From contig NC_087383.1 in NCBI RefSeq assembly GCF_963675165.1, positions 3,750,979-3,814,978 of the forward strand: DNA of 64,000 bases, read 5' to 3'. Under the pieces are notes generated by a model. It worked only from the letters and a program-made list of their open reading frames with translations. It searched no databases and had not been told where the DNA came from. Made by a program: the position numbers and the translations under genes. Source of the DNA: Halichondria panicea (Eukaryota; Porifera; Demospongiae; Suberitida; Halichondriidae). Shown piece by piece: positions 19,159-52,400 of this stretch; position 1 is the stretch's first letter, and each line of letters begins with the position of its first letter.

Positions 19159-20168
19159 ACTATGTATGGAGTTTGTGATAGTTATTAGCTTTGTGATAGT
19201 TATTAGCTACGTGTACTTTCGAATGTTTTTTATGTGTTGTTTTTGCTAACAAAAATCGCATTCATTAGAGAGTCCTATTATAGTGTTGGTATTTCTAAAG
19301 CCCCATTACACGAGGCCTAATATTAAAATGGGTCAGACCACCATTTATGCAAACAGTGCATATAGGGCTGCATGATAGCAGAGGTACGACAGGGGTGGTG
19401 CAGCTCAGCAATAATTAGCAAGCAATTAGCCTCTGATTGATCGGCACTTATACGTGGGATAATTATTGTTCAACAGAGACTTTATAATTGCTGAGCTGCA
19501 CCACATCTGTCATACCTCTCTGGGCTGATAGGAAGCTACTCCAGGCCAGCTAATAGGAATTAAGCTAGTTTCGTTCCCAGGCCGATTTTTTTCAGGTTGG
19601 AAAAATATATACACCCATGAAGAGTTCTTCAATTTTGAGGCAAAAAACAGCCTTGGACCGAGGCTAATATAGGAAGCTACAGGTCAGGCTTACTCACTAA
19701 AAACATCCGCAAACTTAATTGTAAACTCCTCAGAATTAGCGCTTTGTGTTTACTCACAGATAAACTACTTTTGACCGAAGTTCCTGAGGTGCATGGGTTG
19801 GCTATATAATCCAGGCCTGTTTTACATGAACGCAAATTGGTTTAAGAAATCCGAATTAAAGGCTTCGTATAATAGAACAATAAGCTTCTGTCAATGAATT
19901 CAACACTATCTGCCAGTGTGATCATTAGTATGATTTTCCCTAGCACTTATATATTTCTGGCATTTAAGATTTACGAAGAATACTGTTATTTCTAGAATAT
20001 TGGTGTGAAATTACTTTAACACTATAAATTAAGCACGCTTTAATTAAGCATGCTTAAATGCTTTAATTAAGCATGCTTTCCCTTGTGTAACTAAGTACCT
20101 GCATGCTTCTTAGAATAATAATAATTATGTGCACATATATAATTATAGTTACTAGCTAATCTATCAGT
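19159..20168. other. Intergenic stretch with foldback elements
   Basis: No gene seen. It contains the foldback at 19379-19521, a weaker inverted pair around 19565-19670 (GTTCCCAGGCCGATTTT against AAAACAGCCTTGGACCGAGG), and from about 19880 sequence that also lies upstream of the second CABIT-SAM gene near 28970, marking the start of the tandem duplication. Confidence 0.5.
19379..19521. mobile_element. Foldback MITE with about 39-bp arms
   Basis: Left arm 19379-19417 and right arm about 19482-19521 are imperfect inverted repeats; the shared core is GTGGTGCAGCTCAGCAAT. Loop of about 65 bp, no coding content. Different sequence from the foldback at 12841-12975. Confidence 0.65.
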
Positions 20169-21536
20169 ATGAGTTCCTCAGCTAAGCCACAGGCACGACA
20201 AAGTGTCCAGTACAAAAAAAGACAGCCACCGAAAGTTAAACTGATCAAGCATCAGACGCTACCTCAAGCTCAAGCCACGAACAAAAACTGTCAGACAGCG
20301 CATTATGATATGGGAACACTATCCCCTAAGACCTAGTTTCACAGTACTCCAATTTGATATTGCCATGCCGGAAATATTGAATATGAGCCCAACATCAAAG
20401 CTGGCGATTCTCTGGTCATTCATTGCATTAAACAATCCCAAGTTGTAAAGATCATTGACCAGACTGATGAAGCATACAACATTCCGTTTTACTCAGCGGC
20501 TAAATTTGGCATCATTGGAAGTCCCCATGTATGGTTATCACCTACTACTGTTGCCTGCCTTGGAAAGTGTGGGAACCGAAGAGACGCTATAGCATATACA
20601 TATCTTTCAAGCAATTCTACTTACGATTTTCATTGCTATATCATTATCAATATAATTATTTTGCCTGCCTTGGAAACTGTGAGAAGAAACGCTATCTTTC
20701 AAGCAATTTGAAGTGCTAATTTTTAAAGATATAATACTGTATACAAAAGGGTTTCAGGAGGATTCAAGTGATTTGAGCTTACCTTCAGTATGACAGAAGA
20801 CCATGAATCGAACTTCATCTCGAAAGAATGATTGTGATGCTTTTTTGTCAGTTGACCATCACGATCAGGTGTGCAGCTGTATCCTTCCGAAATTTTGAAT
20901 ACACCTCACATAATTATGCTAGATATACCATGTCAAGCCCGACTATATTAATTTTGTTCCGAAATAATGTACAGCTCCTTGCTTGAAGATTTCACTGTTT
21001 AAACATAATTTTATACCCAAGCGCTTCTCCTGCTGTATAATATTATAGATCTAGCACTGGAGAGCTCATTGTAAAAACTCGTAGAATGGCGAATCCTTAG
21101 GTCCATGCATGCCGGTATCTATATATAGACTCTACCTGGCTTTGAGGCAACTTCTGCTACCAGTGACTATACCAAAACAAGGAGAGTCTCAGAGCATCAG
21201 CTCTGTATATTAAGACTATTGCTAAACATGCCAATTAAATTTTGTTCCTAGGTATCAGCATGCAATGCAGTGTCATGCACTTATTGCTGTAATTTGCGTG
21301 AAAAGTCATAGATACTATAATTATTATAAATCTAGTATCTATGGTGTGAGAGTGCCCCAAATACGTATACACTTTTATTACTGTCATGATTACTCTGATG
21401 GACATAATCTTCTGGAAACGTTGGGTATGCCCTCAACACAGAGATGCCTTTTCAATGGTATGGGTGGATGGTGAGGTACATTTCAATATACCTCAATGAA
21501 TTAAGAGGCACTCAAGAACTGGGAGTAAACAATTAG
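20169..21536 (+). pseudogene. CABIT-SAM pseudogene (decayed twin of 29185-31494)
   Basis: Starts ATGAGTTCCTCAGCTAAGCC like the intact gene at 29185 and follows it closely (CAAGTTGTAAAGATCATTGA, TTTTACTCAGCGGCTAAATT) but is riddled with frameshifts, stops and deletions. The second-exon region is essentially missing. A recognisable SAM relic lies at about 21405-21536 (GGTATGCCCTCAACACAGAG to AACTGGGAGT). It faces the chimeric cadherin gene just as its intact twin faces the Delta-like gene, which shows that the pair was duplicated together. Confidence 0.85.
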
Positions 21537-21703
21537 GTTATTCTCAATACAACACGCAACCACAATCGCTCATTGTTTGTGTGTTTTCTATATATCTATC
21601 AATGGACAACTTAATTGTATGACACAGTACGGATATAGAAAGCATGCATGCATGACTGTTGTAGCAAATAATTATATTATACTGAGATCGTACAACGCTA
21701 ATT

Positions 21704-24700
21704 TTAAAATTTGGTTTCATCACATATTTCATCGTAAATGTATTGATAGATGTATTCCCCCTCGTCATTAGAGTTTTCTCTTACACTCAGCGTTGTACTG
21801 AAAGGGGTTGATGGTAGTGGCATATCAACAGCACTAATGTTTCTTTGTTCGAAAATGGTATCTGGTGTAGAAGTAGGATACATTTTCTCCACTGATCGAC
21901 CTGTATTTATAATCAGACAGAAGGATATAAAATTCCACAGCAACGTTTTGCTAGAGTAAATTGATAAGTCAGTGCTTATATAGAAAGGTATGTAATTTCC
22001 AAAAAAATTTTAACTCATCTTTACCAATCAATTTGCTAGTTACCTATTATCTGCCGTGATGTTCTCTTCCTCAAGATAGCACAGTTGATTATAAGCAGAA
22101 TGACAATACAGCCACTCACAAGCAGTAGACCTCCTCCAATGCCAGCAATGAGGGGAATCAGAGGCTCCGATACTGAATGAATACGTAATTGTAACGACCC
22201 AGATCAGTACGTACGTTAATTTGTTTCCAATTACCTGGATTGTCTGGGTCTGTTGGTATGGTTGTAGTAGGAGGCTCAGTATTACACGTGCTCACATTAC
22301 TGTTGCAAACACACTCGGCAGAAGGTGATTGCTCATCTACAGTTCTGGCCTCGCAGTGAGTACCCTCAGTACACTCAACGTTTGCACAGACGTCTTGCAT
22401 TAGTTTTACTTCACAGTTTTGACCGGAAAACCCTGATTCACAAACACAAGTATATATATTTGTGCCGTTCAAACAGAACCCTTGGCCACTGCAGTTTACA
22501 GATCCACAGTAATTTGGATCTGTATCCAGTACTTCAATGAGTACACGGGCAGCATCAAACCGAATAGGGCTACCAGCATCAGCACATTCTATGAATAGAA
22601 TTATATCATCAAATTGTCTTGTTGCCACGTCTCCTATCACAAAAATGTTGCCAGTGTTTATGTTGATGTCAAATAAATCGCTTGCATCGGATATGGAATA
22701 GCTTATCATAGCATTGGCTCCGAGATCGAAATCAGTGCAGGAGACATTTCCAATAATGGTTCCAAAAGTTTCATTTCCATTCAGAGGCCCATAGGTGTAC
22801 GTATCGGAAACAAATATTGGCTCATTGTCATTCTGATCCAGTATAGTGATGTTTACAAGATGAGATGACATTCGCCTATTCAAAATGTCCGCTGATTGGT
22901 CGGTGATGCGAATTTGGAAACTGTAAAAGTCAAACTCCTCCCTATCTAGTGTACCATTCACAAGAATTTGGCCTGAGGCTGTTACAGTAAAATCATCATC
23001 TAAAATGTCTCCGATAACTTCAAACACCACCACTCCATCCAGTCCATTATCATCATCAAAAAACTGCAACTGTATCACCTCACTTCTACGTACAGCATTT
23101 TCCTCAATTTCAAATGGTCCTGATGCAAAAGTCGGTGTGAACTCGTTAACAGGAGACACGAATACAGTAACCAATGTTGTCGCTTGTAGATTATGTATAT
23201 CAGTACAAGCTGCAGTTAGTATGTGGGCAGGGCTCATTTCATAGTCCAATGTCATTCCAGGAGAGAGTGTAATCACTCCAGTTTCCATATTGACAACGAA
23301 AATCCCACCATCATTCCCATCGAGTATACTGTATATCACATCATCATTGTTGTCAATATCGCTGCAGACAAGCTCAACAACAAAGGTGCCACTTTCTTGA
23401 TTCTCAAAGAGCGTTGAGCTGTATGGTGTGTTCTCGAATACTGGTGGAGCTGCGACAGCATCATCTACGGAGACCAACAGCTGGGCTGCTGAACTGAGTG
23501 GTTCAACACTGAGATCAGTAGCAACAACTTGATAGAAGTAGGAAGGAACAATGTCAAAATTAAGAGGAGCAGCTACAAAAACACACCCAGTGTCCTCTTG
23601 GATTCCAAAGGAGCCTTGGTTATTCTGTGGGGACACTAGAATTAGGGAGTAACTGATGGTACCATCTAAAGTGTCTGCTCTGTCCACATCAGTAGCCATT
23701 ATACAGTCTACAATGGTACCTAATGTAGCATTTTCCAGCACACGAAAACTGTAACTTGAAGGTGAGAAAATCGGTGCGTGTTCATTAGCAATCACTGAAT
23801 TGATGGCTAGACTGACTGTTGTAGATATTGGTGGCTGCCCACGATCAGAGCATGTGATATCCAGTACGATACTGCTAATCACTCGGGCTATCGTCCTGAC
23901 TACACCATCCTCGGTTATGATAAAATTATCAAAGAGACTTGTACTAGACAAGGAAAAGTTTGTTAATCCATTCAACCCATCATCAGCGTCTGTACATACA
24001 AAGACTGCTACATCCACATTGCTGCTGTTAGATTCAATTATGGTGATGATTGGTGGATTCTCTGGAGATATAATCGGGCTATTATCATTCACATCTCTGA
24101 TGAATATGTTGACAAGAGCACTGTCAGATCTCTCTGGACCAATCACAATACGATTTTCTGTAACTACTACTACCATACGATATTCACTAATTATTTCTCG
24201 ATCAAGGGGTGCACCAAGCGTAAGATCACCAGTGGTTGGTTCGATAAAGAAGAAACCAGGAGAGCTTTCGTTTTCAAGCCTATAGTTTAGTTGGTCTGAG
24301 TCAATGTCCACAGCTTCAATAGTGGCTACTATAGTACCTGTTGCCGTGTCTTCTGACAAAAAGATATTGATTGTCGTGTTTGTTATCATTGGAGGATTCG
24401 AATCATCTCTAAAGACAGTTACAAAGATGGTGGCATCATCGAAGAATGTTGGTACACCTAGATCGTCACACCTAAGAGCGAGTGTGTACGATTCCGTTGA
24501 TATGCCTTCTGGGAGGGTTAGCGCTCTATTTACGGTTATCTCACCTGTAATTAGATCAATACTGAACGCATCATCAGTGTTGCCTTCTGATATAGAAAAC
24601 CTAACTTCTCCATTAGCACCACTATCAGGATCACTACAGCTCAAATCTGCAATAGTTTCTCCGAATATAACAAGCTCACTGAGTTGTATTAAATGACTAG

Positions 24701-26777
24701 TTCCGTCAGCAAAAGATGGACGATTTGTATTTCCTTCGGTAATTTGAAGAACGACCAAAACATCATCAGTAAATTCAGAGTCAGTAACAAAGGCTGTGAA
24801 GCTTACGCTTGTCTCTGTTATGTTTAGTACAGAGTTAAAAAGTAGTAGTTCGCCAAGTGTATTGATGTCAACAAAACTGTTCGTTTGCAAGCTGTATGTA
24901 ATATCACCACCAAGGCCAACATCTATATCAGTTGCAGATATCCTTCCAATTACATATCGATTAGCAGGAGTGGTGCGAGATACGTTAAAAAAGTAGCTCC
25001 TCTGATCAAAGACAGGGAAATTATCGTTTTCTGGCACAATGTCTATCGTTACTATTGCTAAGTCCTCACGTCCATTATTATCATAGCAACGAATCTCAAA
25101 ACCATAATTCGTGGCTACCTCATAATCGAGCACACCTTGGAGTTGAATTTCACCTGTGCGAGTATCAATGTGAAACAAATCCGTGATTGTTGAAGAAGTG
25201 GTAACAATTTCAACGTGGTCCATGCCCAACTCTCCCCTTCCCCTGTCCACATCAGTACAGGACACATCGCTAGCACTCAGTATCACACTTCCAGTTAGGT
25301 AGGATTCAGGAAACATTCGCGTGTATCGATCTTCAGCAATAATCGGGTCAAACTCATTAACGGAAAGCACAAAAATTCGGAAATCAAAGTTATCGCACTG
25401 ATCACTGGGTGGAAACTCATCACAACCAACAATTGAAACAGCAAAGCGTCTGTACAATCCAGCAATCAAAGTAATACCATCCACATCATTATCCAAATTT
25501 TCTGTGAATGACAAATCACCTGATACCAAGTCAAGCAAGAAAGCTTCACTGTCTCCAGAATCGGGAATACTGTCATCCAATGTATACGTTATACTTCCAT
25601 CAGCACCAGCATCTGTATCTGTAAATAAAAACTTGTTACTAACTTCAGTTAAACTTGAGTTTCCTGTTGCTATAACAACACCTACGGTGACCGTTTCCGA
25701 AATTGCAACTGTACTTAGTCTTTGTACAATCACAGGCACTTGTTCATTTACTGGTAAAATTGCCACATCAACGCTTACAGTGCTGGATTGATTGCTCTCT
25801 GAGTTATCGTAACATGTGACCATGAAGGAATATGATGTTTGTGTCTCATAGTCAAGGTCAGCATTGACAGAGAAAGAGCCAGAAGCTTCGTCCAAGATAA
25901 GAGGACTGATACTACCAGTGCCTACTAGAGAGTAAGTTATTTAACTGGAGGCTGTGTCTGGATCAATGCATCTAGTCACTAGAAATCCTGCCGAAGGTCT
26001 TGGATAGTCTATACCAGCGACAATATTGTCGAGTACGGTTTCGTGTACAGCTGCATCGTATGTACCCAACTCGAAAGCCGGAGCAGTGTCATCGATATCT
26101 TCTACAGAAATTGTTACTCGTAGGTTTCTACCAACACCTTGATCAAAGGTGTTTGCTGCTCGTACAAGAAAATCAAACACAGTATTTTGCTCATAATCTA
26201 AAGCAGACTGCGAAGTGATCTCTCCAGTTTCTGAGTCGATGGCAAAAATACTAAACACCTCAGGGTCCAATGACTCAAAAGAATATTCAATCACTCCAAG
26301 GTTACCTCGATCTTCATCTGTAGCGTTCACAATTGTGATCAAGAAATTTAGCGGAAAATCTTCGCTAAGCGAGAGCTCGATTGCAGCATGAAGAAATTGT
26401 GGACTGAACTCATTTTCATAGATACGCGTCACTCTGAAGAAAGCTGAGGTTGAATCTGTACTATCACTTACGTCAAAACACTCGACGAAAGAGGAGAATG
26501 TACCAGTGGATATATTTAATGAATCAATGTTGAGCGCTACACCACCATTAGTTTCGCTTAAAGTAAGAAAGTTCACGTTGTCAGGGTTTAGAAATCGGTA
26601 GTTGACAATTCCACTAAAAGAGCAAAGAAGTGTGGCAATTGTATGACCCGTTGGTAAGTTTTGGTTGAATGTAATGTCGTAGTTGCTGCTGTTAAATTGT
26701 GGTGATGGTTGAGCAAGTAAACCTGTACAAAGCAAGTTAGTAAAAAGTGTGCAAGTAAAACCCTTCTACTGAACCAT
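21704..26777 (-). pseudogene. Cadherin-Delta chimeric gene, two stop codons
   Basis: Read on the minus strand: exon 26777-22235, transmembrane exon 22172-22044, tail exon 21900-21704. The first 1,500 or so codons copy the giant cadherin (signal-peptide region, then 13 cadherin repeats), joining repeat 8 directly to the repeat 21 region. Near 22530 this runs in frame into the EGF module of the Delta-like gene (VNCSGQGFCLNG...SGFSGQNC, then CANVECTEGTHC), a PTTTIPTDPDNP spacer, a membrane helix (IAGIGGGLLLVSGCIVILLI) and a 64-residue tail ending EGEYIYQYIYDE. Phases agree at both introns. Two in-frame stops break it: TAG as codon 4 (26766-26768) and TAA for CAA at 25941-25943. Otherwise the frame is open for 1,514 codons, so the loss is recent, or another first exon joined at the TTTGTACAG acceptor (about 26721) bypasses the first stop; the second stop has no obvious bypass. 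Confidence 0.85.
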
Positions 26778-27271
26778 TCGAATGATAATGGACACTTTTA
26801 TAGCCCAAATTAGTGTTTAACGTTCAAACTAATGGTCACTGTAACTGCTCTCGAAGTATCTTTATTCGGATGCACATTTGAATTACTTTTATGCCTTTGA
26901 CTCACATATACATACGTCTATCGCTTATCTGTAATTAAAACTACCCTTTAATAGATGAAGTACGTGTCAACTACGGGGTACCTGGCAAAATTAGCGTCAG
27001 AAATAGACAGACCGTCAGCGGTACTCCTTGCAACCAGTTCATACTTGGATTGCACTTGACCTAAAACAGTACAGCAGAGGTGGATTTTCATGTACAATCA
27101 TGGTTTTTGATACAAACGGCATCTCATACCCCTTGCACATTGCTAGGCCTCAATTGTCTTTTGTGTATGCACACTCACCATGTAAGAGGGGGGTCTCAAT
27201 GGACCTAGCTAGACAGCTGTCTTGGCAGAAGCTTTGGGTGGTTTGCACTTGGTTTTTATCTACTATTATTA

Positions 27272-27465
27272 CCGTATAGCGCGAAATTTTCGAGGGGCTT
27301 AATTTTCGCGGATTTCGTGGGTTGGAATTCTACACGAAAATTAAGTCCACCAAAAGTGTTGGTTAATATCCGGTAAGCAGTCATTCCGCGAACATTGTGC
27401 AACGAAATGGCTTTTAGAGGCCAATCCACGAAATATAAGTGCCTCGAAAATTTCGCGCTATACGG
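27272..27465. mobile_element. MITE with long TIRs and TA target duplication
   Basis: 194 bp beginning CCGTATAGCGCGAAATTTTC and ending with its near complement AAATTTCGCGCTATACGG, flanked by TA on both sides (27270-27271 and 27466-27467). The corresponding place in the direct copy of the duplicated flank (about 40885-41010) lacks it, which suggests insertion after the duplication. Likely Tc1/mariner-type and non-autonomous. Confidence 0.85.
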
Positions 27466-27705
27466 TATGTCAAAGCAGCTTTAGGTGCATGCAAGGGATT
27501 ATGTAAGAAGATATCATTTCACACAAAAGTCCATGAATAGCATTAGTGCAAGCTAGATCTATACCACTGTAGAAGAGGAGAGACAAAACAAAACATTATG
27601 CACTGTCAGTGAAGCATTAAGTTAATATCATATCATAAGGGTTGCATATAATTATAGTCTACAACAAACAGTTTTGTTCTTCTGAGTCACTGTCATTGAT
27701 AGCAG

Positions 27706-27767
27706 CTATCCCAGGATGAGCTCATAGAGGATGACCAGGATGTTTACGACCAGCAAAGCCAAAGGTA
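27706..27767 (-). pseudogene. Orphan copy of the last IER3IP1 exon
   Basis: Minus strand: after an acceptor-like CCCTGAAG the reading is PLALLVVNILVILYELILG and stop, the same as the real last exon at 40557-40612 apart from a 6-nt insertion that adds two residues and keeps the frame. No upstream IER3IP1 exons accompany it. It was carried along at the edge of the inverted duplication. Confidence 0.85.
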
Positions 27768-28639
27768 CTTCAGGGGAAAGAGAAATACAGTACACACAAT
27801 GCCCCTGGGACAACTCTCAATATATACGGTACTCTGCAGGGAAAAGAAAAGAACAATAAACACAATGCCTATGGGATAACTCTCAACACACAGTGTATAC
27901 ATGGCGCTTCGATTCCCTTTTCTCAGGGGAAAAAGTGAGTGGTTTCCAGCCTAGCAAATTCACCGTGCAAATGAAGAGAGTGTGTGTCCTTTTTATAAGA
28001 ACTTCTCTATTGTATATAGTATACGTATATAATCACCATGCAAATGACTTTAGTAAGAGCTAGAGTTTTGACACTGATCACCTATTTGGAATCCACATTT
28101 TCAGCTGAGATATTCCTGTAGAATTACTGTATAACATCATCATCATGCGGTTTGAGGGAATAGTTAGTGAGTTAAATTTTTTGCCAAAATCCTAAAAGAA
28201 ACCTTACAGTGTATTTGACTTTATTTCAACAAAGAATCCATTCTTCTATAGCCTCCTTCACAGGTCGATTGGAGGCTACCATTCTCGAATTTAAATCCAC
28301 TCTACATCATATATAGTGATCGTTAAGATGAGATTGCTTGCGGCTGTATATCTCAAAGCATGATATTCGAGCAGAAGAAGGTGATTATTATAATTATATG
28401 CACATATGAGAATGTCAATCTGTATTACACCTCTCCTCTACATCACTCACTCTAGTGCATCTTTGTGATCACTGCCATGGACACTGCGGCCTAGACGAAC
28501 AAGTCCAGATAACGTTGTGAAAAAACTGTTTTGATTTGAAACACCTTCTTCTATACCGTTTTGTACCTTTTTTTTACCTGCTGCCAACAACGTAGTAAGT
28601 AGAGAATAGTTTTCTCTTAGAAGCGTATACCTCCCGCAG

Positions 28640-28920
28640 TGCAGTACCAGTGTCCAAATCAATGATGGGTTTCTTTGGAGGTTGTTATTCTTTCCTTTTC
28701 TCCCTGTCCTTTCGTCTTTTGCAGACAAAAAACTCACCAAATATTCTCCCCAAAAGCCTGCCATCCGTGATCACAACAAGCTTAACTACCGTCTACAGTT
28801 GTTTTGTTGATAAAGTACTCAAGAAGCCAATCAGTTTAGCTCCTGCAGTTCAACCGATGAAGACTACAAAATCCACGTCATCTTCTCCCAATCCAACACA
28901 GTCAGCTCAGTTCGTATCGA
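28640..28920 (+). pseudogene. Fragment of CABIT-SAM proline-rich exon
   Basis: Matches part of the second exon of the first CABIT-SAM gene (about 18232-18462): GTCCAAATCAATGA, AGCCAATCAGTTTAGCTCCTG and CCACGTCATCTTCTCCCAAT recur in order. The frame is broken and the CABIT and SAM parts are absent here. A relic of gene duplication next to the intact second gene. Confidence 0.7.
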
Positions 28921-29184
28921 TTTGTTTGGACACTCCACCTTAATTTGCTTCGGTATATAAGCTTGAAGTTCTATCAATGAATTCAACACTGTATCTGTCA
29001 GTGTGATCATTATAGATCTAGTATGATTTTCCCTATAAGATTACTGGTATCAATTACACATTTTAAGCACATTGCATGCTTTCCCTTGTGTAACTAAGTA
29101 TGGTATGTGCACACCTTGTGTAACTAAGTACACGGTATGCTATTTGCACATAGCTATTAGCTAAAGCCTGATCTAGCTATCAAC

Positions 29185-31494: not shown

Positions 31495-31726
31495 AGTTCC
31501 ACATGTTGGACAGCAACTTTAGCAACACAAACTCATGGAGAACCACATGTATATAATTGTATTCATTTTGTGTGTGTTTTTCTAAGAGATCTACATTAAT
31601 ATCAAAGGAAAAGTGAAATTCATCTTGTAATGCGCATGTACAGTATATATATATAATTATGTCTACAGTTTGGATGGAAGGAATGCATGACTGTATAGCG
31701 AATATACGTGAGATCGTACATCACAA

Positions 31727-34232
31727 TCAGATAGTGTGAAGATTATTTTGTTTGGTATCATCAGATACAACATCGTAAATGTATTGATAGACGTATTCCC
31801 CCTCGTCATTAGAGTCCTCTCCTACACTCAGCGTTGTACTGAAAGGGGTTGATGGTAGCGGCATACTAACAGCACTAATGTTTCTTTCATTCTTTCCTTT
31901 GAAAATGGTATCTGGTGTAGGAGACATTTTCCCCACTGATCGACCTGCATGTGATCATAAAGAATCTACAATGTATAGTGATTCAGAAGTAGATCTATAT
32001 ATATAATTATAGCTGATGTTTTGCATGCTTTGTGCTGATTACTCAAATTTATTATTTTTTTCCTATAATTATGTTCAAATTATATAGTCAATAATATTTA
32101 TTAATTGCTGGTTACCTATTGTCTGTGGTGATGCTCTCTTCCTCAAGACAGCACAAATGGTTATGAGCAGAATGACAATACAGACACTCACAAGCAGTAG
32201 ACCTCCACCAATCCCAGCAATGAGAGGAATCAGAGGATCCAACACTGAATAGGGGTTGGAATCAACTACATAATTAATTATAAAAAATTACATATATCAT
32301 TCTAATTGTAAGGACACAGATATTTCAGTACTTTAATTTAAATTTCTACCTGGATTGTCTGGATCTGTTGGTATGGTTGTAGTAGGAGGCTCAGTATTAC
32401 ACATGCTCACATTACTGTTGCAAACACACTCGGCAGAAGGTGATTGCTCATCTACAGTTCTGGCCTCACAGTGAGTACCCTCAGTACACTCAACGTTTGC
32501 ACAGACGTCTTGCATTAGTTTTACTTCACAGTTTTGACCGGAAAACCCTGATTCACAAATACAAGTGTAGTTATTGGTACCGTCCAAACAGGAGCCTTGG
32601 CCACTGCAGTTTACTGCTCCACAGTCATCGATATTGAGTTGACAACTATCTCCATTGTAGCCAGAATTGCATTCACATACACTATTCACACATACCCCAT
32701 TTCCAGCACATTCTAGGCCACCAAACATGCTACAGGACTGAGATTGGATCATTTCCCCACAGGAAGGACCGCGAAAGTTTTCGCTGCAAACTACACGAAA
32801 AGTAAATCCAAGTTGGGCGATATTTTCTCTCCCAATGAGAAGTTTTTGAAAGTTTTGTCCAACTTGATAACTAGGTGCGGATAGGCGTTTAACAAATATA
32901 TCAACCAGAGGGTCTTCAGAAGAATGTGCATCACTGTCATGGGCTCGGATCAAAAGCTGTGCACCCTACAAAAATGTTATCGTGGAGGATCAGTGCAAAG
33001 CTGTTAAACAGAACACATGCTCATGTCTATGTAATTCTCTATGTCAGACATGGTATATATATGCAACCGTTTTAATGTACTCACCGCACTTCATGTAGTG
33101 AAAAGCTACCCACACAATAAAACGTACACCCTATGTATTACTTATTGCCCAGCATGCACGAGTACAATATTTGGCATGTTGCATGAGGGCGCCTGCAATA
33201 ACTAACTTGTTAATGCCTAATGACGTCAAACTCTTCTGGTTTTCTGGGCCTATAAAACTGAATAGACATTGTGTTTGCTGATTTTGAATTCCATAATAAA
33301 TTCTTAGGTTTTCTTCCCACAACTATTTAAAAGGGACCAATTGAGTTATTGGGTGGGAGGATGGCCAACCGGGGCATTATCATCCACATACTGCATTTAC
33401 ACACAGTGCAACATGCCATATATATATATAATTATATTGCACTTGCATTATAATTATGCTATAATTATTGCAGCTAGTGCAATATATGGTTGCTATGACA
33501 ATGTAGTGATGCAACATGCTATTGATCTGCCCACTCACTGGGCAACAAACACGTATAACTGCATAGCAGGTTACTTTTGTATGGTGTGTAAATGTTCGTA
33601 GAGCATCATACAAAAATTAAACTACGAAATTTGCAATACGTTCAATGTCACATATCCTGAGCTGTATACAAATTCAAAGAAATATTTAATTGGGCACTTC
33701 ATACGAACATTTGCATCTACGAAAATTACCAGCTATACAGTACTTACGAAGTGAAGCGTTTATTGTGCATGCAGCAATTGTTTTATTAACTTACATCCCA
33801 ATATCGTGAGATTCCATTCAATCTCAATGGGTTTCCAACTTCAAGAAACGTGGCAAGGTTAAAGTTAATAGCCCTGTCATCCACATTTGTACCAGTTACC
33901 ACGAACCTGTCCCCCACACATTGTTCAGGTAAACCAAGTGGTACAAGACAAATACGAAAGTACGTATCACAGCGATTAGCTCCAGTACAAGTGCCTTTCT
34001 CACTGATTTGATCGCAGCAGCCTAGAGGCTCACTAGTTGAACTGCTACTGCGACAGGTACTGCAGTGACCACTAGGATTGTTGTATGACTGGAATTGCAT
34101 CAATATGTGGTAGTCACACTTACTGGTAGTCACCTGAAATTGTAAATACATTATAGCTATAATTATAGCTAGATTTACAGTATGCAAACTCACCATTGAA
34201 AATATCATAATCAGTAAACAGTAAAGCTTCAT
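31727..34232 (-). CDS. Delta/Serrate-like Notch ligand
   Basis: Five exons read down the minus strand, 34232-34194, 34133-33795, 32965-32350, 32244-32116 and 31944-31727, give 446 residues. A signal peptide (MKLYCLLIMIFSM) leads into an MNNL-type N-terminus (GCCDQ...CDTYFRICLVP; LLIRAHDSDA). Then FTFRVVCSENFRGPSC resembles the start of a DSL domain, which continues only in degenerate form, followed by EGF-like units (CAGNGVCVNSVCECNSGYNG; NCSGQGSCLDG...SGFSGQNC; a shortened third), a Thr/Pro spacer, a membrane helix (IAGIGGGLLLVSVCIVILLI) and a 75-residue or so tail ending in a tyrosine cluster (EGEYVYQYIYD). MNNL, DSL and EGF together define Notch ligands; presentation to Notch on neighbouring cells is inferred. 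It has fewer EGF units than most ligands. Its EGF-membrane-tail part is shared with the chimeric gene at 21704-26777. An alternative is a Delta-derived surface protein no longer able to bind Notch. Confidence 0.75.
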
Positions 34233-40612: not shown

Positions 40613-43600
40613 CTGCTATGAATGACAGTGACTCAGAAGACCACAGAACTATGTTGTAGACTATAATTATATGCAACCCTCATGGCATATTGATATTGGA
40701 CTTTTCAAGGAATCTAATTTTTATTGATAAACTTAATGCTTCAATGAGTGCATAATGTTCCGTTTTATCTCCCCTCTTCTATATGACATTCTGTCTTGCA
40801 CTGATGCTATTCATGTAAACACTCTGATATTCATGGACTTGTTTGTGTGAAATGATATCTTCTTACATAATCCCTTGCATGTGCTAGACCCACCCATTAC
40901 AGCTTGTAGAGTAGAGTTTCTAGCTACAGAAACCTAGCATATACAAGCTACCCAAAAAAGTCCTTCTGTCATAGGTAGGCCAAGACAGTGTCTACAATAT
41001 ATACAGGTCCATTGAGACCCTCCCTCCTTGGTGAGTGTGGTATGACATAATAAGTGAAAACACAATTGAGGCTCTACAAGTGCAGGCATTTAAAACTATG
41101 ATAGTGAATCACAGCACATACATACTGTTACACACATACATTGTTTATAGGTAGAGTGCAATCCAAGTATGAACTGGTTGCAAGGAGTACCGCTGACGGT
41201 CTGTCTATTTGTGACGCTACTTTTGCCAGGTACCCGTAGTTGACACGTACTTCAAAACGTAGTGTTAATTACAGATAAGCATCTAGACGTATGTACGTAA
41301 GTAAAAGAGTCAAAGGCATAATAGTAATACAAGTGTGCATGCATGTATTAACATCCGAATAAACATTGAACGTTTAAAACACTGACTTGGGCTATGTCAA
41401 GTGGCCATTATAATAGAGGAATTTTATTTCGTTCGGATGGTTCAAGAGAAGGGTTCTACTTTTATTGTGTGTACATTTTTTACTAGCTTGCTTTGTACAG
41501 GTTTACTTGCTCAACCATCACCACAATTTAATAGCAACTACAATATTACATTCAACCAAAACTTACCAACGGGTCATACAATTGCCACACTTCTTTGCTC
41601 TTTTAGTGGAGTTGTCAACTACCGATTTCTAAACCCTGACGACGTGAACTTTCTTACTTTAAGCGAAACTAATGGTGGTGTAGCGCTCAACATTGATGCA
41701 TTAAATATATCGACTGGTACATTCTCCTCTTTCGTTGAGTGTTTTGACGTAAGTGATAGTACAGATTCAACCTCAGCAATCTTCAGAGTGACACGTATCG
41801 ATGAAAATGAGTTCAGTCCACGATTTCTTCATGCTGCAATCGAGCTCTCGCTTAGTGAAGATTTTCCGCTAAATACCTTGATCACAATTGTGAACGCTAC
41901 AGATGAAGATCGAGGTAACCTTGGAGTGATTGAATATTCTTTCGAGTCATTGGACCCTGAGGTGTTTAGTATTTTTGCCATCAACTCAGAAACTGGAGAG
42001 ATCACTTCGCAGTCTGCTTTAGATTATGAGCAAAATACTGTGTTTGATTTTCTTGTACGAGCAGCAAACACTTTTGATCAAGGTGTTGGTAGAAACCTAC
42101 GAGTAACAATTTCTGTAGAAGATATTGATGATACTGCTCCGACTTTCGAGTTGGGTACATATGATGTAGCTGTACACGAAACCGTACTCGACAGTATTGT
42201 CGCTGGTATAGACTATCCAAGACCTTCGGCAGGATTTCTAGTGACTAGATGCATTGATCCAGACACAGCCTCCAGTCAAATAACCTACTCTCTAGTAGGC
42301 ACTGGTAGTATCAGTCCTCTTATCTTGGACGAAGCTTCTGGCTCTTTCTCTGTCAATGCTGACCTTGACTATGAGACACAAACATCGTATTCCTTCATGG
42401 TCACATGTTACGATAACTCAGAGAGCAATCAATCCAGCACTGTAAGCGTTGATGTGGCAATCTTACCAGTAAATGAACAAGTGCCTGTGATTGTACAAAG
42501 ACTAAGTACAGTTGTAATTTCGGAAACGGTAACCGTAGGTGTTGTTATAGCAACAGGAAACTCAAGTTTAGCTGAAGTTAGTAACAAGTTTCTATTTACA
42601 GATACAGATGCTGGTGCTGATGGAAGCATAACGTATACATTGGATGATGTTATTCCCGGTTCTGGAGACAGTGAAGCTTTCTTGCTTGACTTGGTATCAG
42701 GTGATTTGTCATTCACAGAAAATTTGGATAATGATGTGGATGGTATTACTTTGATTGCTGGATTGTATAGACGCTTTGCTATTTCGATTGTTGGTTGTGA
42801 TGAATTTCCACCCAGTGATCAGTGCAATAACTTTGATTTCCAAATTTTTGTGCTTTCCGTTAATGAGTTTGACCCGATTATTGCTGAAGAACGATACACG
42901 CGAATGTTTCCTGAATCCTACCTAACTGGAAGTGTGATACTGAGTGCTAGCGATGTGTCCTGTACTGATGCGGACAGGGGAAGGGGAGAGTTGGGCATGG
43001 ACCATGTTGAAATTGTTACCACTTCTTCAACAATCACAGATTTGTTTCACATTGATACTCGCACAGGTGAAATTCAACTCCAAGGTGTGCTTGATTACGA
43101 GGTAGCCACGAATTATGGTTTTGAGATTCGTTGCTATGATAATAATGGACGTGAAGACTTAGCAATAGTAACGATAGACATTGTGCCAGAAAACGATAAT
43201 TTCCCTGTCTTTGATCAGAGGAGCTACTTTTTTAACGTATCTCGCACCACTCCTGCTAATCGATATGTAATTGGAAGGATATCTGCAACTGACATAGATG
43301 TTGGCCTTGGTGGTGATATTACATACAGCTTGCAAACGAACGGTTTTGTTGACATCAATACACTTGGCGAACTACTACTTTTCAACTCTGTACTGAACAT
43401 AACAGAGACAAGCGTAAGCTTCACAGCCTTTGTTACTGACTCTGAATTTACTGATGATGTTTTGGTCGTTCTTCAAATTACTGAAGGAAATACAAATCGT
43501 CCATCTTTTGCTGACGGAACTAGTGATTCAATACAACTCAGTGAGCTTGTTATGTTCGGAGAAACTGTTGCAGATTTGAGCTGTAGTGATCCTGATAGTG

Positions 43601-46600
43601 GTGCTAATGGAGAAGTTAGGTTTTCTATATCAGAAGGCAACACTGATGATGCGTTCAGTATTGATCCAATTACAGGTGAGATAACCGTGAATAGAGCGCT
43701 AACCCTCCCAGAAGGCACATCAACGGAATCGTACACACTCGCTCTTAGGTGTGACGATCTAGGTGTACCAACATTCTTCGATGATGCCACCATTTTTGTA
43801 ACTGTCTTTAGAGATGATTCGAATCCTCCAATGATAACAAACACGACAATCAATATTTTTTTGTCGGAAGACACGGCAACAGGTACTATAGTAGCCACTA
43901 TTGAAGCTGTGGACATTGACTCAGACCAACTAAACTATAGGCTTGAAAACGAAAGCTCTCCTGGTTTCTTCTTTATCGAACCAACCACTGGTGATCTTAC
44001 GCTTGGTGCACCCCTTGATCGAGAAATAATTAGTGAATATCGTATGGTAGTAGTAGTTACAGAAAATCGTATTGTGATTGGTCCCGAGAGATCTGACAGT
44101 GCTCTTGTCAACATATTCATCAGAGATGTGAATGACAATAATCCAACATGTACTCGTACTTTGAACAATGCTGATGTTGATGAAACGGCTGGTGTAGGCA
44201 CGCTTATACTTCAGCTGCAATGTAATGATCCTGACTTGAATGAGAATGGGCTTCTCACGTACACACTTGTAGAGGATTTCAATGTTCTGAGTATTGATTC
44301 CGGTACCGGAGTGATAACTCTTGGAAATCTTCTAAACAATACAGAGAGCACCCTTCTCCCCGCAACTGTGATAGTATCAGATTCTGGAATTTTGGAGACT
44401 CGCCAGATTCAGATCCAAGTAACAGTTTCTATTATTTCTCGAAATAACAACCAACCTACTTTTCAGAATTTGCCTATGACCATAAACGTTAGCGAGGCTC
44501 AATTGTTAGGAGATGTTTTCTTCACTGTTGTTGCAACTGATTCTGATCGTGGAAGCTTTGGACAAATTATATACTCAATTGCTGGAGGAAATGAGAACAC
44601 TTTCAGCATCATATCCAACACTGGTGGGCTATCTTTGGTAGAGAAATTAAACTTCTTTTCTCAGGCTGTATATTCACTCAATATTTCTGCTAGCGATACA
44701 GATTTTGACTCTTACGAGACTCTCACGATCAATGTACTCGATGCTAATGAATACAACCCTGTGTGTGAATCAATTCAGGAAAGTTTCTCACTTGCTGAGA
44801 GTATCGAACCTAACGCCCTTGTGTTTCAACAACTCTCTTGCTCTGATAATGATGAAGGGAGCAACGGTCAAATTGTGTATACTATTGAGTCCGGAAATAT
44901 TGAAAATATATTTGAAATTCAAACTGATGGCACTGTGGCAACTACTGATGTGCTTGATTATGAAGCTGTACAGGAATATAATCTTGACGTCCTGGTTTCT
45001 GATGGAGGCTCTCCGCCACGTTCTACAATGGTTGCGATTCGTGTAACCGTCACAGCGGTGAATGAATTTCCACCAGTCTTCACTCAAGCACTGTATGAAA
45101 TGAACATTGTAGAACATAGCGATATCTCAACATCTGTGCTTCAGGCTATGGCTTCAGATCAAGATTTAGCATCACATCGAGATGGGGAGATAGCCTTTTC
45201 TATCAATGGCCCTGATGCACGTTTCTTCACAATTGCTAGCAGTGGAATTATCCGTATCGCGAGTGCAATAGACCGAGAATTGACAGGTAACTTACTAATA
45301 TTCACTGTTACCGCTACAGACCAGGCAGTCATTCCCCAAAGCAGCTCAGCACTGATAAACATCACAGTAGTAGATCTTGATGATAATTCACCCGTATTCA
45401 CGACTGATCTGTACGTATTCGTAGTGAATACAACAGCCACGACAGGTACTCAAGTAGGATCCACACTTTGTACTGACATAGACGCACCAAGCAATGCTCG
45501 AATTTCATATTCATTCACAGAAGAGGGAGAACACAGCTCATTTTTCGATATCAGACAAAATGGTAGGATCGAACTTATACAAGATGTTCCAATAAACAGC
45601 ATTTTTACTTTCGATATTGTTTGCACAGGACCTAGTCCACTAAATAGATCTGACTCCGCTACTGTCAGTGTGAGAGTGCTACTCAATTCCACAATCACTT
45701 TTCATCCAGACAGTACTTATGATGCGAACATTAATGAAAATTCAGCTTCTGGAACTGAGATACTGGTATTAAATGCTACCGCAAGTACTGGAGCAATTCT
45801 TAAATTTAATCAGATAAATCTTCTTAGCCAGTTTCGGGTTGATGAATCTAGCGGCAGCGTTCAATTGACAGGTGCTCTTGACTTTGAGACCACTGAGTCG
45901 TATAGCTTGAGAGTTGAAGCCACTGACAATGGTGACCCTCCAAACACAAACGAAGCTATTGTCCATGTGACTGTTATCAACCTCAACGATCGAGAACCCA
46001 GAATCACAACGGAACCGACTGAAATAGTGAGAGAAGAAGAGAACAACATCGATGTTGAGACTCTCGATCAGTACCTTTGCTCAGATGGGGATAGTGGAGA
46101 TTTTGGAGATGTGTCGTTTAGGATTGCTGATGGAGATACCAATAATATATTCTCAATAACAGCACCAGGAATGCTACTACTTGTAGGGGATCTTGATTAT
46201 GAGATTGCTACACACTACACTCTGCGAATAGTATGTGAAGACGGAGGAAATCCGCCACTATCGGATGAGATAACAGTTCCGATAAGAATCTTACCAGTGA
46301 ACGATAATCCTCCAATTTTCAACACAGTGCAACCAATTACCGTAGATGAGAACACGCCTATTGGAACCAATGTTGGCTTACCAATAGCAGCAACCGATCA
46401 AGACAGCCCTCCTCACAATACAATCTCCTACTCTATATCACCTACTGACTCGCCCTTCAGCATCTCACCGACAACTGGCCAACTAACGCTTCAAACCTCT
46501 CTCGATTTTGAAGAAGCATCTGAATACATGCTCACCATTCGAGCTGACAATGATGAACGTATCACTACTGCTAATCTTACTATCACTGTTAGCGACGTCA

Positions 46601-49405
46601 ATGATAATATTCCCGTATTTTCTCGCTTTCTCTATTTTGGAACAATTCCTGAATCAGCAAATATTGGAGATATGGTCTTTCTCGTTGTTTGTACAGACAG
46701 AGACTCGGGGGCTAATGGTGACATTATGTTCACACTCGTAGGGGACTTTCCATTTCAAATTGAAAGTAATGGAGCTCTTACTGTGGCTGGAACTCTCGAC
46801 CATGAAGCTCAGTCATTATACAGATTTGGAATCACTTGCAGTGATGGTATTTTCTCTGCTTCCGCTGACATAATCGTGATTGTAGTTGATGTGGATGAGC
46901 ACATGCCAGTATTCGTTGCACATGTGTACAATTTCAGTGTCTCTGAAGACGATGGTATCAATACTGAGATAGGAACGGTGGAAGCTATAGATCAAGATGG
47001 ACTTATAGCTGGTGTAGTAATGTATGAGTTTCCAGATACTGACGTACCTTTCGAAGTTAACGTGGACAGTGGTGTTCTAACACTAACGTCCATAATTGAC
47101 TACGAAGAACAGCAGATGTATACTTTCTTCGTAGAAGCGTTTGATGTTGCAAACAATCGAGACACTGCACTTGTTATGGTCGAGATAAACAACGTGAACG
47201 ACAACAATCCTTCTTTTTCTGACAATTTGTATTTCTTTAGCGTTCGAGAATCTTCTCCTCAAAACACACCAGTTGGAATGGTTGAGTGTATGGATGTAGA
47301 TGATCAGACAGAAGGTATTCCTGTGCAGTACTCACTTGGTTTTCAAGACGTTCCGTTTCATATAGATTCCACATCTGGCATGCTAGTTGTCAATGGAGTG
47401 GTTGATTTCGAAACTACGGCACGCTATATGATTCTAGCATTCTGTAATGACTCTGGTAACATAGAAGTCAGCACTGATATCACTATTGACTTGGAGCCTT
47501 TCAATGACTTTGCTCCAAGTTTTGTAGAGCCGTCCAGTGTTAATGCATCAGAGTTGGAAGTAGCCGAGAATTTGGCGGTGGGAAACACTTTGGCACGTTT
47601 AATTGCTGTTGATGCCGACCAAGGACCGCAAGACCATAGAGCGGTGGTGTTTAGTATAATTGATGGCAATGGTGATAATGTGTTCGTTATTACCAGTAGT
47701 TTATTACGATTGCAATTACCTTTAGATCGAGAGCAAGTATCAGAATATTTACTGGTTCTAAGAGCAGAGAATGTCATTTCACCGGATGATACTAGCAATT
47801 CCATCTCACTCTTTTCAATTGCTACATACAGGATTATAGTAACGGACATCAATGACAACAGCCCGATTATATCTCCGGAAAATCCACCAGTCATCACCCT
47901 AATTGAATCTAACAGCAGCAATGTGGATGTAGCGGTCTTTGTATGTACAGACGCTGATGATGGATTGAATGGATTAACAAACTTTTCCTTGTCTAGCACA
48001 AGTCTCTTTGATAATTTTATCATAACTGAGAATGGTGTAGTCAGGACGATAGCCCGAGTGATTAACAGTATTGTACTGGATATCACATGCTCTGATCGTG
48101 GACAGCCACCAAAATCTACAACAGTCAGTCTAGCCATCAATTCGGTGATCATTAATGAACACGCACCGATTTTCTCATTGTCAAGTTACAGTTTTCGTGT
48201 GCTGGAAAATGCTACATTAGGTACCATTGTAGACTGTGTAATGGCTACTGATATGGACAGAGCAGACACTTTAGATGGTACCATCAGTTACTCCCTAATT
48301 CTAGTGTCCCCACAGAATAACCAAGGCTCCTTTGGAATCCAAGAGGACACTGGGTGTGTTTTTGTAGCTGCTCCTCTTAATTTTGACATTGTTCCTTCCT
48401 ACTTCTATCAAGTTGTTGCTACTGATCTCAGTGTTGAACCACTCAGTTCAACAGCCCAGCTATTGGTCTCCATAGATGATGCTGTCGCAGCTCCACCAGT
48501 ATTCGAGAATATACCATACAGCTCAACGCTTTTTGAGAATCAAGAAAGTGGCACCTTTGTTGTTGAGCTTGTCTGCAGTGATATTGACGACAATGATGAT
48601 GTGCTATACAGTATACTCGATGGGAATGTTGATGGGATTTTCGTTGTCAATATGGAAACTGGAGTGATTACACTCTCTCCTGGAATGACATTGGACTATG
48701 AAATGAGCCCTACCCACATACTAACTGCAGCTTGTACTGATATACATAATCTACAAGCGACAACATTTGTTAATGTTATCGTGTCTCCTGTTAACGAGTT
48801 CACACCGACTTTTGCATCAGGACCATTTGAAATTGAGGAAAATGCTGTACGTAGAAGTGAGGTGATACAGTTGCAGTTTTTTGATGATGATAATGGACTG
48901 GATGGAGTGGTGGTGTTTGAAGTTATCGGAGACATTTTAGATGATGATTTTACTGTAACAGCCTCAGGCCAAATTCTTGTGAATGGTACACTGGATAGGG
49001 AGGAGTTCGACTTTTACAGTTTCCAAGTTCGCATCACCGACCAATCAGCGGACCTTTTGAATAGACGAATGTCATCACATCTTGTAAACATCACTATACT
49101 GGATCAGAATGACAATAAGCCAATATTTGCTTTCGATACGTACACCTATGGGCCTCTGAATGGAAATGAAACCGTTGGAACCATTGTTGGAAACGTCTCC
49201 TGCACTGATTTTGATCTCGGAGCCAATGCTATGATAAGTTATTCAATATCCGATGCAAGCGATTTATTTGACGTTAACGTAAACACTGGCAACATTTTTG
49301 TGATAGGAAACCTGGCAACAAGACAATTTGATGACATAATCCTATTCATAGACTGTGCTGATGCTGGTAATCCTATTCGGTCTGATGCTGCCCGTGCACT
49401 CATTG
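40530..49405 (+). repeat. Inverted segmental duplication, direct copy
   Basis: Partner of 22535-27790 (-). Begins just before the last IER3IP1 exon, covers the cadherin upstream flank and the first 8 kb of the cadherin exon. 44131-47851 is absent from the partner; the edges of that block share AATGACAA. This copy is the likely source, since the cadherin frame is intact here and IER3IP1 is complete. Confidence 0.88.
40613..41436. other. Upstream region of the giant cadherin
   Basis: No coding seen. Duplicated in inverted form at about 26778-27700. A likely promoter region by position; no confident core element identified. Confidence 0.5.
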
Positions 49406-52400
49406 AAATACAGGAAGTCAATCGTAATGCCCCAGAATTCCTCAACAGCTCTTATTTGGTTCAAGTGCCTGAGGATACACAGTTACTGAATGAAGTGATC
49501 CTAACTGTACAAGCTGTGGATTCAGATGATGGTGTGAATGGAGAAGTAAGGTACTCATTAGTTGATAGTGTCGATACAACATTCTTCATAAATGAAGACA
49601 CAGGTGATATATCTATTCTCAGATCTCTGGATGTTGAGACTAGAGCATTGTATGTGCTGACTGTAGTTGCAAGAGATGGTGCTATTGATAGTAATACTCA
49701 GTTGATGTCCAAAGTGAATGTTACTATTGAAGTGACGGGTGTGAACGAGTTCACTCCAGTCTGCTTTGATCCGATTTACGTTACAATCATCAATCATACG
49801 ACTATTGGACCAATCATAGATTTTCGATGTACTGATGGTGACATTGGTATGGATGGTGCTCTGTCATACACAATATGGAGTGGAAATGATAACGGCTTAT
49901 TCAATGTCAGTGAAGATGGATCTTTCATTGTGACTACTTTCATATTACCAGACCCAAATTTCGAGCAATTTGTGCTTCAGATATCTGTGACAGACATGGG
50001 AATGCCATCACTTCAAATCACAATTGAAGCTATCTTGATATACTCCTTCGATAATCTGGACACTCCGACATTCGAATCGCAACTTTACTCTTTCAATGTG
50101 TCTGAGAGTTCAATGGTAGGCACAATAATTGGTCGTGTGGTAGCATCAGATTCTGATCCTGGATTGCAAGGGCAAGTTGTCTACTCCGTAACTGGTGTAG
50201 GGAGTTTTGAAGTAGACCCTGTAAGTGGAGAACTGTTTATTCGTCGACCTCTCGACTGGGAGAGTACACCCACCCACACTTTCACAGTCATGGCTGAAGA
50301 TAGCGACCCTTTAGCTCCTCTTAGGGGTGTGACCACCGTGACAATTAATGTTATCAACGAGAACGATAATATACCCCAATGTGAGAGTATGTTCTATACT
50401 GTGGAGATATTTAGCAATGCGACTATTGATGAGACAGTGGTGTTATTGAATTGTGAAGATGCTGATCAAACACCTATACAGTTTGAACTCTCGAGTGGAC
50501 AAAAATCTCCATTTGGAGTAGACCCCATCACAGGGAGAGTGTATATTGCTGCCCCTGTCACACCTTCTACTGTTACTGCACTGGATGTAAATGTGATTGG
50601 GAATGGTGGAGAGTTCACACAAATAACTATTAGTATTCAAGTGATATTCATCAATACTCAGCCCCCTGTGTTCGTCGAACGTCAGTTCTCCATCTCCATA
50701 CCAGAAAGTACACCACTCCTCACAGTGATTGGATATATTTCTGCCACAGACCCAGACAGTCATCAAGCTGATCTCATTTACTTCATAGAAGACCCTTTGC
50801 CTCCTAGCGAACTATATATTAACCCCACCAATGGTGGAATTATACTAACCAGCCCCCTTGACTTTGAAACAACAGCACAATACTCGTACAATGTATTTGT
50901 TATGGACGCAGGTAGTTTTGACGAGTCATATCAGCTAGTGGACATGGCAACTCTCACTGTTAATGTAACAAACACCAACGACAACTCTCCCATCCTTGAC
51001 AGTGGTGGTGTGTATGGAGTAACTGTCATGGAGACCACCTCAATAGGAGCAAGTCTTGTGAATATAAGTTGTACCGATGACGACGCCTCACCCTTTTCCT
51101 CCCCTCAAGTCTCCGCTAATCTCACTGCTACTCCATTCAGACTAGTACCATTAGAAGATCTCTACAGCATTGAGGTTTCACAGCAACTATCTGGTCCTTC
51201 ATCTTTCATTTTCGATATACTCTGCACTGACAACGGAAATATATCATCTGAGGGTCAAGTCTATATATTTGTGCCTGAGCCATTGGCGCCAGTTTTCACA
51301 GAACCACGCTATGACTGGATACTTAGTGAAACTGGAGAAACAGGAGAGCAATACAGTAACATACAGGCATCTAGTAATGATGGTTCAGCAATCACGTATT
51401 CAATTACTGATGGCAATGATAACAACATATTCTATATCGAGCCTGACACTGGTGTCATCATTCTTGTTATAAGTCTCGACTTTGAGATGCAGACCAGCCA
51501 TGGTTTAGTTGTGAGGGCAGTTGACGGCAGTGGAAGGCAATCAAGTGTTTTACTTCTAGTGACGATTGTGGACGAAAATGATGAAGTACCACTAACTCCG
51601 CCTTCTGCCCTGCTCTCAGTTAGGCAAAATGCTCCAGTTGGATTTCCGATTGGTGTCCTACAATGCACAGACCTGGACTCGATAGCGAACACAACATTCA
51701 GTTTTGATCCACCCAACACTCTATTTAGCGTTGATAACTTGGGTATTGTGAGACTAGAAGGTGCGCTAACAGATACTCCAGTATATTCACTACCCGTGCT
51801 ATGTTTCGATATAACTCGCCCTGAGGACGTCTCTATGGGAATTATTACCATTGAAGTGGAGTTTGTTAATGTCTATCCACCAATCTTCGGATTCGATTCT
51901 TACATATTCTCTATACCGGAAGATGCTCCTCCTCTATCCTTTGTTGGTCAGATTTCGGCAACTGATAGAGATGTGGGTAGCTTTGGTGAGATTGCATACA
52001 TGATTTTTGACGGCAATCCAGATCAGTTTTTCATCGATGCTATCACAGGTCGTATTGGCGTTCTTACCTCAGTCGATCGTGAGACGATAGACACGTACGT
52101 TCTTAATATTGCAGCTATTGATGGAGGGGTGGCTGCCCTTCCTGGGACCAGATTGAACGAAACAACTCTAGTGACTATCAGAATAGCGGATATTAATGAT
52201 AACCATCCTATTCCACAGCAATTTACATACATTCAGTCCATTTCGACGAATCACACACTACTTTCGCCTGTACTCACAGTCACATGCACAGATGCAGATC
52301 TGTTGGATAACGGTGTCATTGATTACTCCTTAGAACAAGACGGTCAAAATTTTGTAATACAGAGTAATGGTACTGTTCTGCTTGCAAGAGAGCAGACAAC

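Follow-up and report, generated by a model that had tools for sequence, protein, structure and literature searches.

The 64,000-nucleotide stretch of the Halichondria panicea genome analyzed here (contig NC_087383.1 of assembly GCF_963675165.1, positions 3,750,979 to 3,814,978 of the forward strand; from here on, the window) contains on its minus strand, at 27042-21704, a chimeric gene in which repeats copied from a neighboring giant cadherin gene continue in frame into the EGF, membrane, and tail sequence of a second neighbor, referred to here as the partner gene, which is related to Notch ligands. In order, the chimera comprises a signal-peptide exon and 13 cadherin repeats, followed by a pair of EGF-like domains, a membrane span, and a tail of 75 residues. 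The assembled sequence supports that this chimeric gene is genuine DNA. The reading that we favor, with moderate confidence, is that the chimera was made locally, that its ectodomain was once under selection, and that the assembled copy, which carries an in-frame stop codon, is a recent or still segregating null.

In a gene model based on splice sites and conservation with the parental genes, the locus consists of four exons with three GT-AG introns, as follows:

26982..27042, minus strand: exon 1, signal peptide MNWLQGVPLTVCLFLTLILP, with a phase-1 donor; 2 of 61 bases are unlike 41169-41229 upstream of the giant cadherin
22235..26722, minus strand: exon 2, encoding the 13 cadherin repeats, both EGF-like domains, and the stalk (from translation, Pfam, and repeat profile)
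22044..22172, minus strand: exon 3, membrane span, 129 bases; the partner gene has a membrane exon of the same length
21704..21900, minus strand: exon 4, the larger part of the cytoplasmic tail (which totals 75 residues) and the stop (from the splice model)
25941..25943, minus strand: in-frame TAA, codon 281 of 1624; the giant cadherin has CAA

Intron 1 has a length of 259 bases and GT-AG ends, and joins 26982 to 26722 in phase 1. A first-pass annotation of this DNA, made from the sequence alone, had started the frame at an ATG near 26777, which is followed by an in-frame TAG; the sequence there belongs to the end of intron 1, the real exon 1 lies at 27042-26982, and the TAG was rejected as a further break in the gene. 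The spliced frame comprises 1625 codons with stops at codons 281 and 1625 only. Using a profile built from 18 giant-cadherin repeats outside the copied parts, we found 13 repeats in the chimera, as originally counted, of which two are weak (11-14 bits). Pfam identified 10 cadherin stretches in the open part at 22158-25940 at E values of up to 5 (9 at 0.001) and 1 in the open part at 25941-26765; membership of the cadherin superfamily is supported by PF00028 (340 bits, E 1e-103) as well as by the 13 repeats of the purpose-built profile. Pfam scans detected no LamG, MNNL, or DSL domain in these two open parts, the fusion point being downstream of MNNL and DSL in the partner, and no Hedgehog or VWA domain in the chimera. 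The tail contains 3 lysines, two Y-x-x-hydrophobic motifs, and a C-terminal ETKF. In a pattern test only, the beta-catenin-binding pattern D-x4-aromatic-xx-EG was not found in the tail; this pattern was taken from the passages of PMC5968619 consulted, with one lost symbol restored from the wording of that paper.

The chimera and its two parents divide into the following source blocks:

41169..58332, plus strand: giant cadherin, the first parent, with 53 repeats by profile and a frame open over exon 2
31727..34232, minus strand: partner gene, the second parent, with five exons, GT-AG introns, and 446 residues open
24080..26722, minus strand: cadherin segment 1 with repeats 1-8; its source in the giant cadherin extends to 44140 (BLAST, alignment, profile)
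22525..24089, minus strand: cadherin segment 2, five repeats, from giant cadherin 47851-49415 (BLAST, alignment, profile)
22514..22524, minus strand: fusion junction, where cadherin passes into EGF sequence of the partner (last cadherin match at 22525, first partner match at 22513)
22235..22513, minus strand: partner-derived part, with both EGF-like domains and the stalk (alignment)

BLAST of 20000-29000 against the window matched 24080-27068 to 44140-41142 (inverted, 94.3% identical) and 22525-24089 to 49415-47851 of the giant cadherin (inverted, 95.5% identical), while 22033-22513 and 21710-21906 matched 32105-32628 and 31751-31950, respectively, of the partner on the same strand (82-84% with gaps). 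The identity of the cadherin blocks, 94-96% across 4.6 kb, is beyond chance. These blocks bear out the two parents named in the first-pass annotation, and BLAST and alignment agree with its claim that the cadherin frame continues without a break into the EGF-membrane-tail module of the neighbor, with the join lying between 22525 and 22513. The reading frame is intact at this join as well as at the intra-cadherin join, which sits in a D-x-N-D-N linker. Relative to the parents, exon 2 has a single indel of 3 bases and no frameshifts, and the differing bases number 67 of 2630 in segment 1, 70 of 1565 in segment 2, and 14 of 276 in the EGF part; overall, the divergence from the parents is 3-4% for cadherin and 5-11% for the partner exons. 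The exon phases of the shared module are kept, as had been claimed: the intron positions of the partner are retained, and the membrane exon has 129 bases in both genes. The description of the chimera as a copy of the giant cadherin holds for its origin but not for contiguity, because residues 1-900 of the giant are followed directly by residues from about 2141 to 2661 and ~1240 residues are missing. The possibility that the giant cadherin instead underwent internal repeat expansion was rejected, as there is no DNA self-match of >100 bases inside the giant.

The left block (18286-22513) derives from 28729-32628 on the same strand and is largely collinear with it, and is followed by 22525-27800, which derives from 49415-40523 in inverted orientation; the partner and the giant cadherin are head to head. 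From this observed block layout, together with the reading frame and the splice-site exon structure, we infer an inversion, a deletion, and an order of steps. A tandem duplication would have copied a block consisting of a neighbor and the head-to-head pair of partner (minus) and giant cadherin (plus). The left copy would then have undergone an inversion with one break in the EGF exon of the partner and the other in the cadherin ectodomain. As the parents are head to head, the inversion would have brought both halves into one transcriptional orientation: the promoter region of the cadherin, with its signal peptide and repeats, would have come to lie in line with the partner exons for the EGF domains, membrane span, and tail. 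An internal deletion at the linker motif would have removed the ~1240 residues of repeats. BLAST within the window found no remnant of the reciprocal product between 27800 and 29160. Sequences flanking the chimera are as follows:

27488..27800, minus strand: copy of the region upstream of the giant cadherin, from 40523-40881 (BLAST; 34 mismatches in 301 aligned bases, 6 indels)
27270..27467, no strand assigned: palindromic element of ~200 bases resembling a miniature inverted-repeat transposable element (MITE), with inverted ends TACCGTATAGCGCGAAA (inverted self-match; between two upstream blocks common to the giant)
20161..21526, no strand assigned: duplicated 3' flank of the partner, in pieces, source 29177-31436 (BLAST)

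The upstream divergence (11%) is similar to that of the partner flank (12-14%), which fits one duplication. The MITE-like element gave no BLAST match to the upstream region of the giant cadherin and is apparently an insertion into the upstream region of the chimera. At 29161-31158 and 20161-20995, the duplicated block also holds two abutting open reading frames of 434 and 230 residues, separated by a single in-frame stop, with no Pfam match at E 0.001. Elsewhere in the window, 13636-14697 is a 353-residue open frame with F-box and F-box-associated (FBA) domains.

The first-pass annotation had missed the TAA at codon 281, which splits the chimeric frame into abutting open reading frames at 25941-26765 and 22158-25940, and the assembled chimera has no open frame from start to stop. 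Therefore, the assembled copy cannot make the fusion protein as first read, and its description as a single-pass protein fails for this copy. The giant cadherin frame is open over >5600 codons, which argues against poor base quality. A 21-base GT...AG intron over the TAA would keep the frame and was rejected as far too short, 21 bases being far below animal intron sizes; it would also cut into a cadherin repeat. The assembled allele would yield either a secreted protein truncated in the third repeat or a message removed by nonsense-mediated decay, as introns follow the stop.

Three tests on the cadherin part indicate past selection on the frame and the domain quality of the ectodomain, a conclusion that applies to this part and does not extend to the tail. 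In the first, the synonymous divergence (dS) was 0.0715 and the nonsynonymous divergence (dN) 0.0211, giving a ratio of 0.295 (0.21-0.42) over 1395 codons with gapped codons, the stop codon, and exon 1 excluded; only 0.3% of bootstraps gave a ratio of at least 0.5, the minimum expected for a chimera evolving freely against the silent rate of the parent. The second test concerned frameshifts. The noncoding sequence on the cadherin side has 10 frame-breaking indels in 578 aligned bases, and the expected number of frameshifts in exon 2 on the chimera branch is 14 (scaled to coding dS) or 39 (unscaled), numbers that are generous in that noncoding DNA may tolerate slippage more than coding DNA; the observed number is 0. 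In the third, the total profile score of the 13 repeats was 571.9 (with X at the stop) versus 570.4 for the parent-type sequence, while neutral simulations gave 519-562 with 33 nonsynonymous changes (100 of 100) and 536-568 with 20 (100 of 100); this test pools the post-split changes of the parent itself with those of the chimera. In our reading, the ectodomain would have been selected during most of the life of the chimera, and the TAA is probably recent or allelic.

Several observations weigh against this reading. The ratio for segment 2 alone is 0.37, with 11% of bootstraps at 0.5 or higher, and the ratio for the membrane span plus tail is 0.78 (0.38-1.79), i.e., without clear constraint. 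The in-frame TAA itself counts here, and one stop is about the neutral expectation (simulations with 33 nonsynonymous changes rejected 1.01 stops on average). Moreover, the coding dS of 0.07 is lower than the noncoding divergence (0.11 upstream, 0.30 in intron 1). Also, the last 71 EGF-stalk codons (22235-22455 versus 32350-32570) have only 4 differences beside an adjoining intron that hardly aligns, which points to gene conversion, and such conversion may have repaired the chimera copy. As for the origin, the left block has a small out-of-order match (18989-19086 with 31340-31437), intron 1 is 30% diverged, the partner-derived introns hardly align (45-52% mismatches), the stretch past the stop is 36% diverged, and the membrane-plus-tail dS is 0.14 versus 0.07 for the cadherin part. 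The hardly aligning introns and the higher membrane-tail dS raise the possibility that the halves differ in age, and the chimera may go back to two duplications that took place at different times. The cadherin part has its next-best matches at 27-32% identity, which is too distant to tell which copy changed.

The TAA, the tail ratio, the nearly unchanged EGF-stalk tract beside hardly aligning introns, and the low coding dS are also what favors a pseudogene dead from birth, i.e., a duplication by-product with its parental likeness kept by gene conversion alone. We consider this explanation unlikely, because ~14 frameshifts would be expected even since any last conversion (scaled to dS) and none is seen, and because the accumulated amino acid changes left the repeat scores unlowered. 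A lower probability still attaches to a working gene that avoids the stop by splicing exon 1 to an in-phase acceptor past 25941, which would give a shorter ectodomain with the EGF, membrane span, and tail: phase-compatible acceptor-like sites lie past the stop, ending at 25925, 23636, and 23465, and TTTTTATTTACAG, read by eye, ends near 25619, but all four candidates fall inside cadherin repeats by the profile boundaries, and acceptor-like sites may be common by chance. Finally, the assembly contains a single copy of the junction, as would fit a false joining of alleles or copies of both parents. However, the copy is unlike its parents throughout, contains the 200-base element of its own, and carries a 9-base indel in intron 1 and the 3-base indel in exon 2, while both flanks are diverged duplicates and the two internal joins are in frame. 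Given the divergence from the parents and the diverged duplicate flanks, a misjoin is therefore very improbable.

With respect to the parents, the giant cadherin may continue by splicing past 58332. The partner encodes an MNNL-type N-terminus, half of a DSL domain, three EGF-like domains, a membrane span, and a tail; the last of the three EGF-like domains is recognizable from its cysteines only. Its N-terminus scored 21.5 bits against Pfam MNNL, just below the cut-off of 22.5 (E 1.8e-4, profile positions 20-157 of 157), and, at E values of up to 10, the MNNL family was matched by each of the 3 members of the alignment, the best with 5e-7. Using a profile of these 3 members against PDB, we found among the best 60 of 102 matches Delta-like protein 1 (4xbm, E 6e-12), a Delta-like protein (4xl1_B, 5e-9), Delta (7alk, 4e-7), Delta-like 4 (5mvx, 6e-6), and Jagged-1 (4cbz, 3e-4); among these 60, the Delta-like matches cover the N-terminal region of the partner with the EGF part, while the top matches, to EGF repeats of Notch, are due to the EGF part alone. 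No Pfam DSL domain was found in the partner at E values of up to 5 or 10, in scans with filters that drop most weak matches, and the genome as a whole contains 26 DSL matches with E values of up to 0.001, none of which is inside the window. In an alignment with a true DSL gene of the same genome, the partner aligns well over the first half only (RVVCSENFRGPSC); its DSL domain is reduced to the first two cysteines, with RVVC...GPSC remaining. A search with the N-terminal exon of the partner gave 74 matches in the genome, its own locus counted, and the partner therefore belongs to a large Notch-ligand-like expansion. The partner-type tail matches two loci only in the genome (E up to 1), namely, the partner itself and the chimera. 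By these comparisons, the partner is a relative of Notch ligands with the DSL domain only half present. The earlier identification of the partner as a Notch ligand is, thus, half right, with an MNNL-type N-terminus that scores just below the cut-off and a DSL domain that is incomplete, and the tail of the chimera does come from the partner, but calling it a Notch-ligand tail adds little, given that it matches only these two loci of the window.

Clusters of partner-related genes with an MNNL-type exon and EGF repeats are present at C6:3.97-4.03 Mb, C14:5.64-5.72 Mb, and C12:1.81-1.87 Mb, as well as on C15, and the genome has 29 MNNL matches alongside the 26 DSL and 74 partner-exon matches. Two partner relatives that we inspected, on C14 (L015) and C6 (L051), are without a full DSL domain by alignment. 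At C4:5457205-5457588 and C4:5594023-5594406, three tandem DSL matches lie in one 275-residue open frame, of identical length at the two loci; cnidarian multi-DSL genes are mentioned in the part of PMC2770060 consulted. A search for Notch NODP gave no matches anywhere and is uninformative, the controls being likewise unmatched.

The first-pass annotation had regarded the domain combination as unlike any described family. Fat-like and invertebrate classical cadherins share with the chimera many cadherin repeats followed by EGF-like domains and one membrane span; the chimera differs in that Pfam scans of its open parts gave no laminin-G domain, a membrane-proximal feature of classical and Fat-like cadherins, that its tail has no match to the beta-catenin-binding pattern of classical cadherins, and that its EGF, membrane, and tail exons come from another gene. 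A further gene in this genome encodes both cadherin and EGF repeats within a single frame, and this domain order is therefore not new. In literature searches covering titles, the starts of abstracts, and some passages, we found no published cadherin with a Notch-ligand membrane-tail module, which is not proof of absence. The junction protein has no relative among prokaryote genome contigs and viral contigs, where animal DNA is not expected, so that this result has no bearing on related species. Young chimeric genes can arise by segmental duplication. The chimera resembles such genes in having adjoining parents, duplicated flanks, and an in-frame join, and differs from them in that the join lies inside exons and that inversion of a head-to-head pair would be needed. 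It is a new instance of a duplication-born gene fusion, with parents that form an unusual pair.

According to the passages of PMC3482393 consulted, the DSL domain mediates Notch binding in bilaterians, and 5 of 5 Deltas of Amphimedon have a DSL domain, with divergent tails; MNNL plus DSL is taken as strong evidence for Delta in those of PMC6040629. The partner is similar to sponge Delta ligands in its MNNL-type N-terminus, EGF domains, membrane span, and own tail, and differs from the Amphimedon Deltas as described there in having half of a DSL domain, while the chimera has none. Hedgling, as described in the part of PMC4054682 consulted, has an N-terminal Hedgehog domain beside a VWA domain; like the chimera, it combines a cadherin ectodomain with part of a signaling-ligand gene, whereas neither of these two domains was found in the chimera, the foreign part of which lies next to the membrane and on the inner side. 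Judged by these features, the chimera is none of a Fat-like or classical cadherin, a Delta, or a Hedgling.

A full-length product of the chimera would be a single-pass adhesion protein carrying the first eight repeats of the giant cadherin. These repeats are those of the giant itself and would probably have the same contact partners as its N-terminus, and the chimera would anchor the same contacts on a different membrane span and on a tail without the beta-catenin-binding pattern. It would act as a competitor of the giant or as a rewired receptor that couples the same contact to other machinery. We regard it as possible, although doubtful, that the population has such a working receptor, with giant-cadherin repeats on a Notch-ligand-derived anchor and tail, which arose by one local duplication plus inversion and was selected, and that the assembled haplotype is a segregating nonsense allele. 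The chimera shows the making of a multi-domain adhesion protein in a place where the parents are adjoining and the layout left by the duplication, the probable inversion, and the in-frame joins is directly readable. Should open alleles be present, the chimera would raise the question of whether a cadherin becomes a new receptor when its inner half is exchanged; a fixed stop would instead illustrate how brief the life of a chimera of this kind can be.

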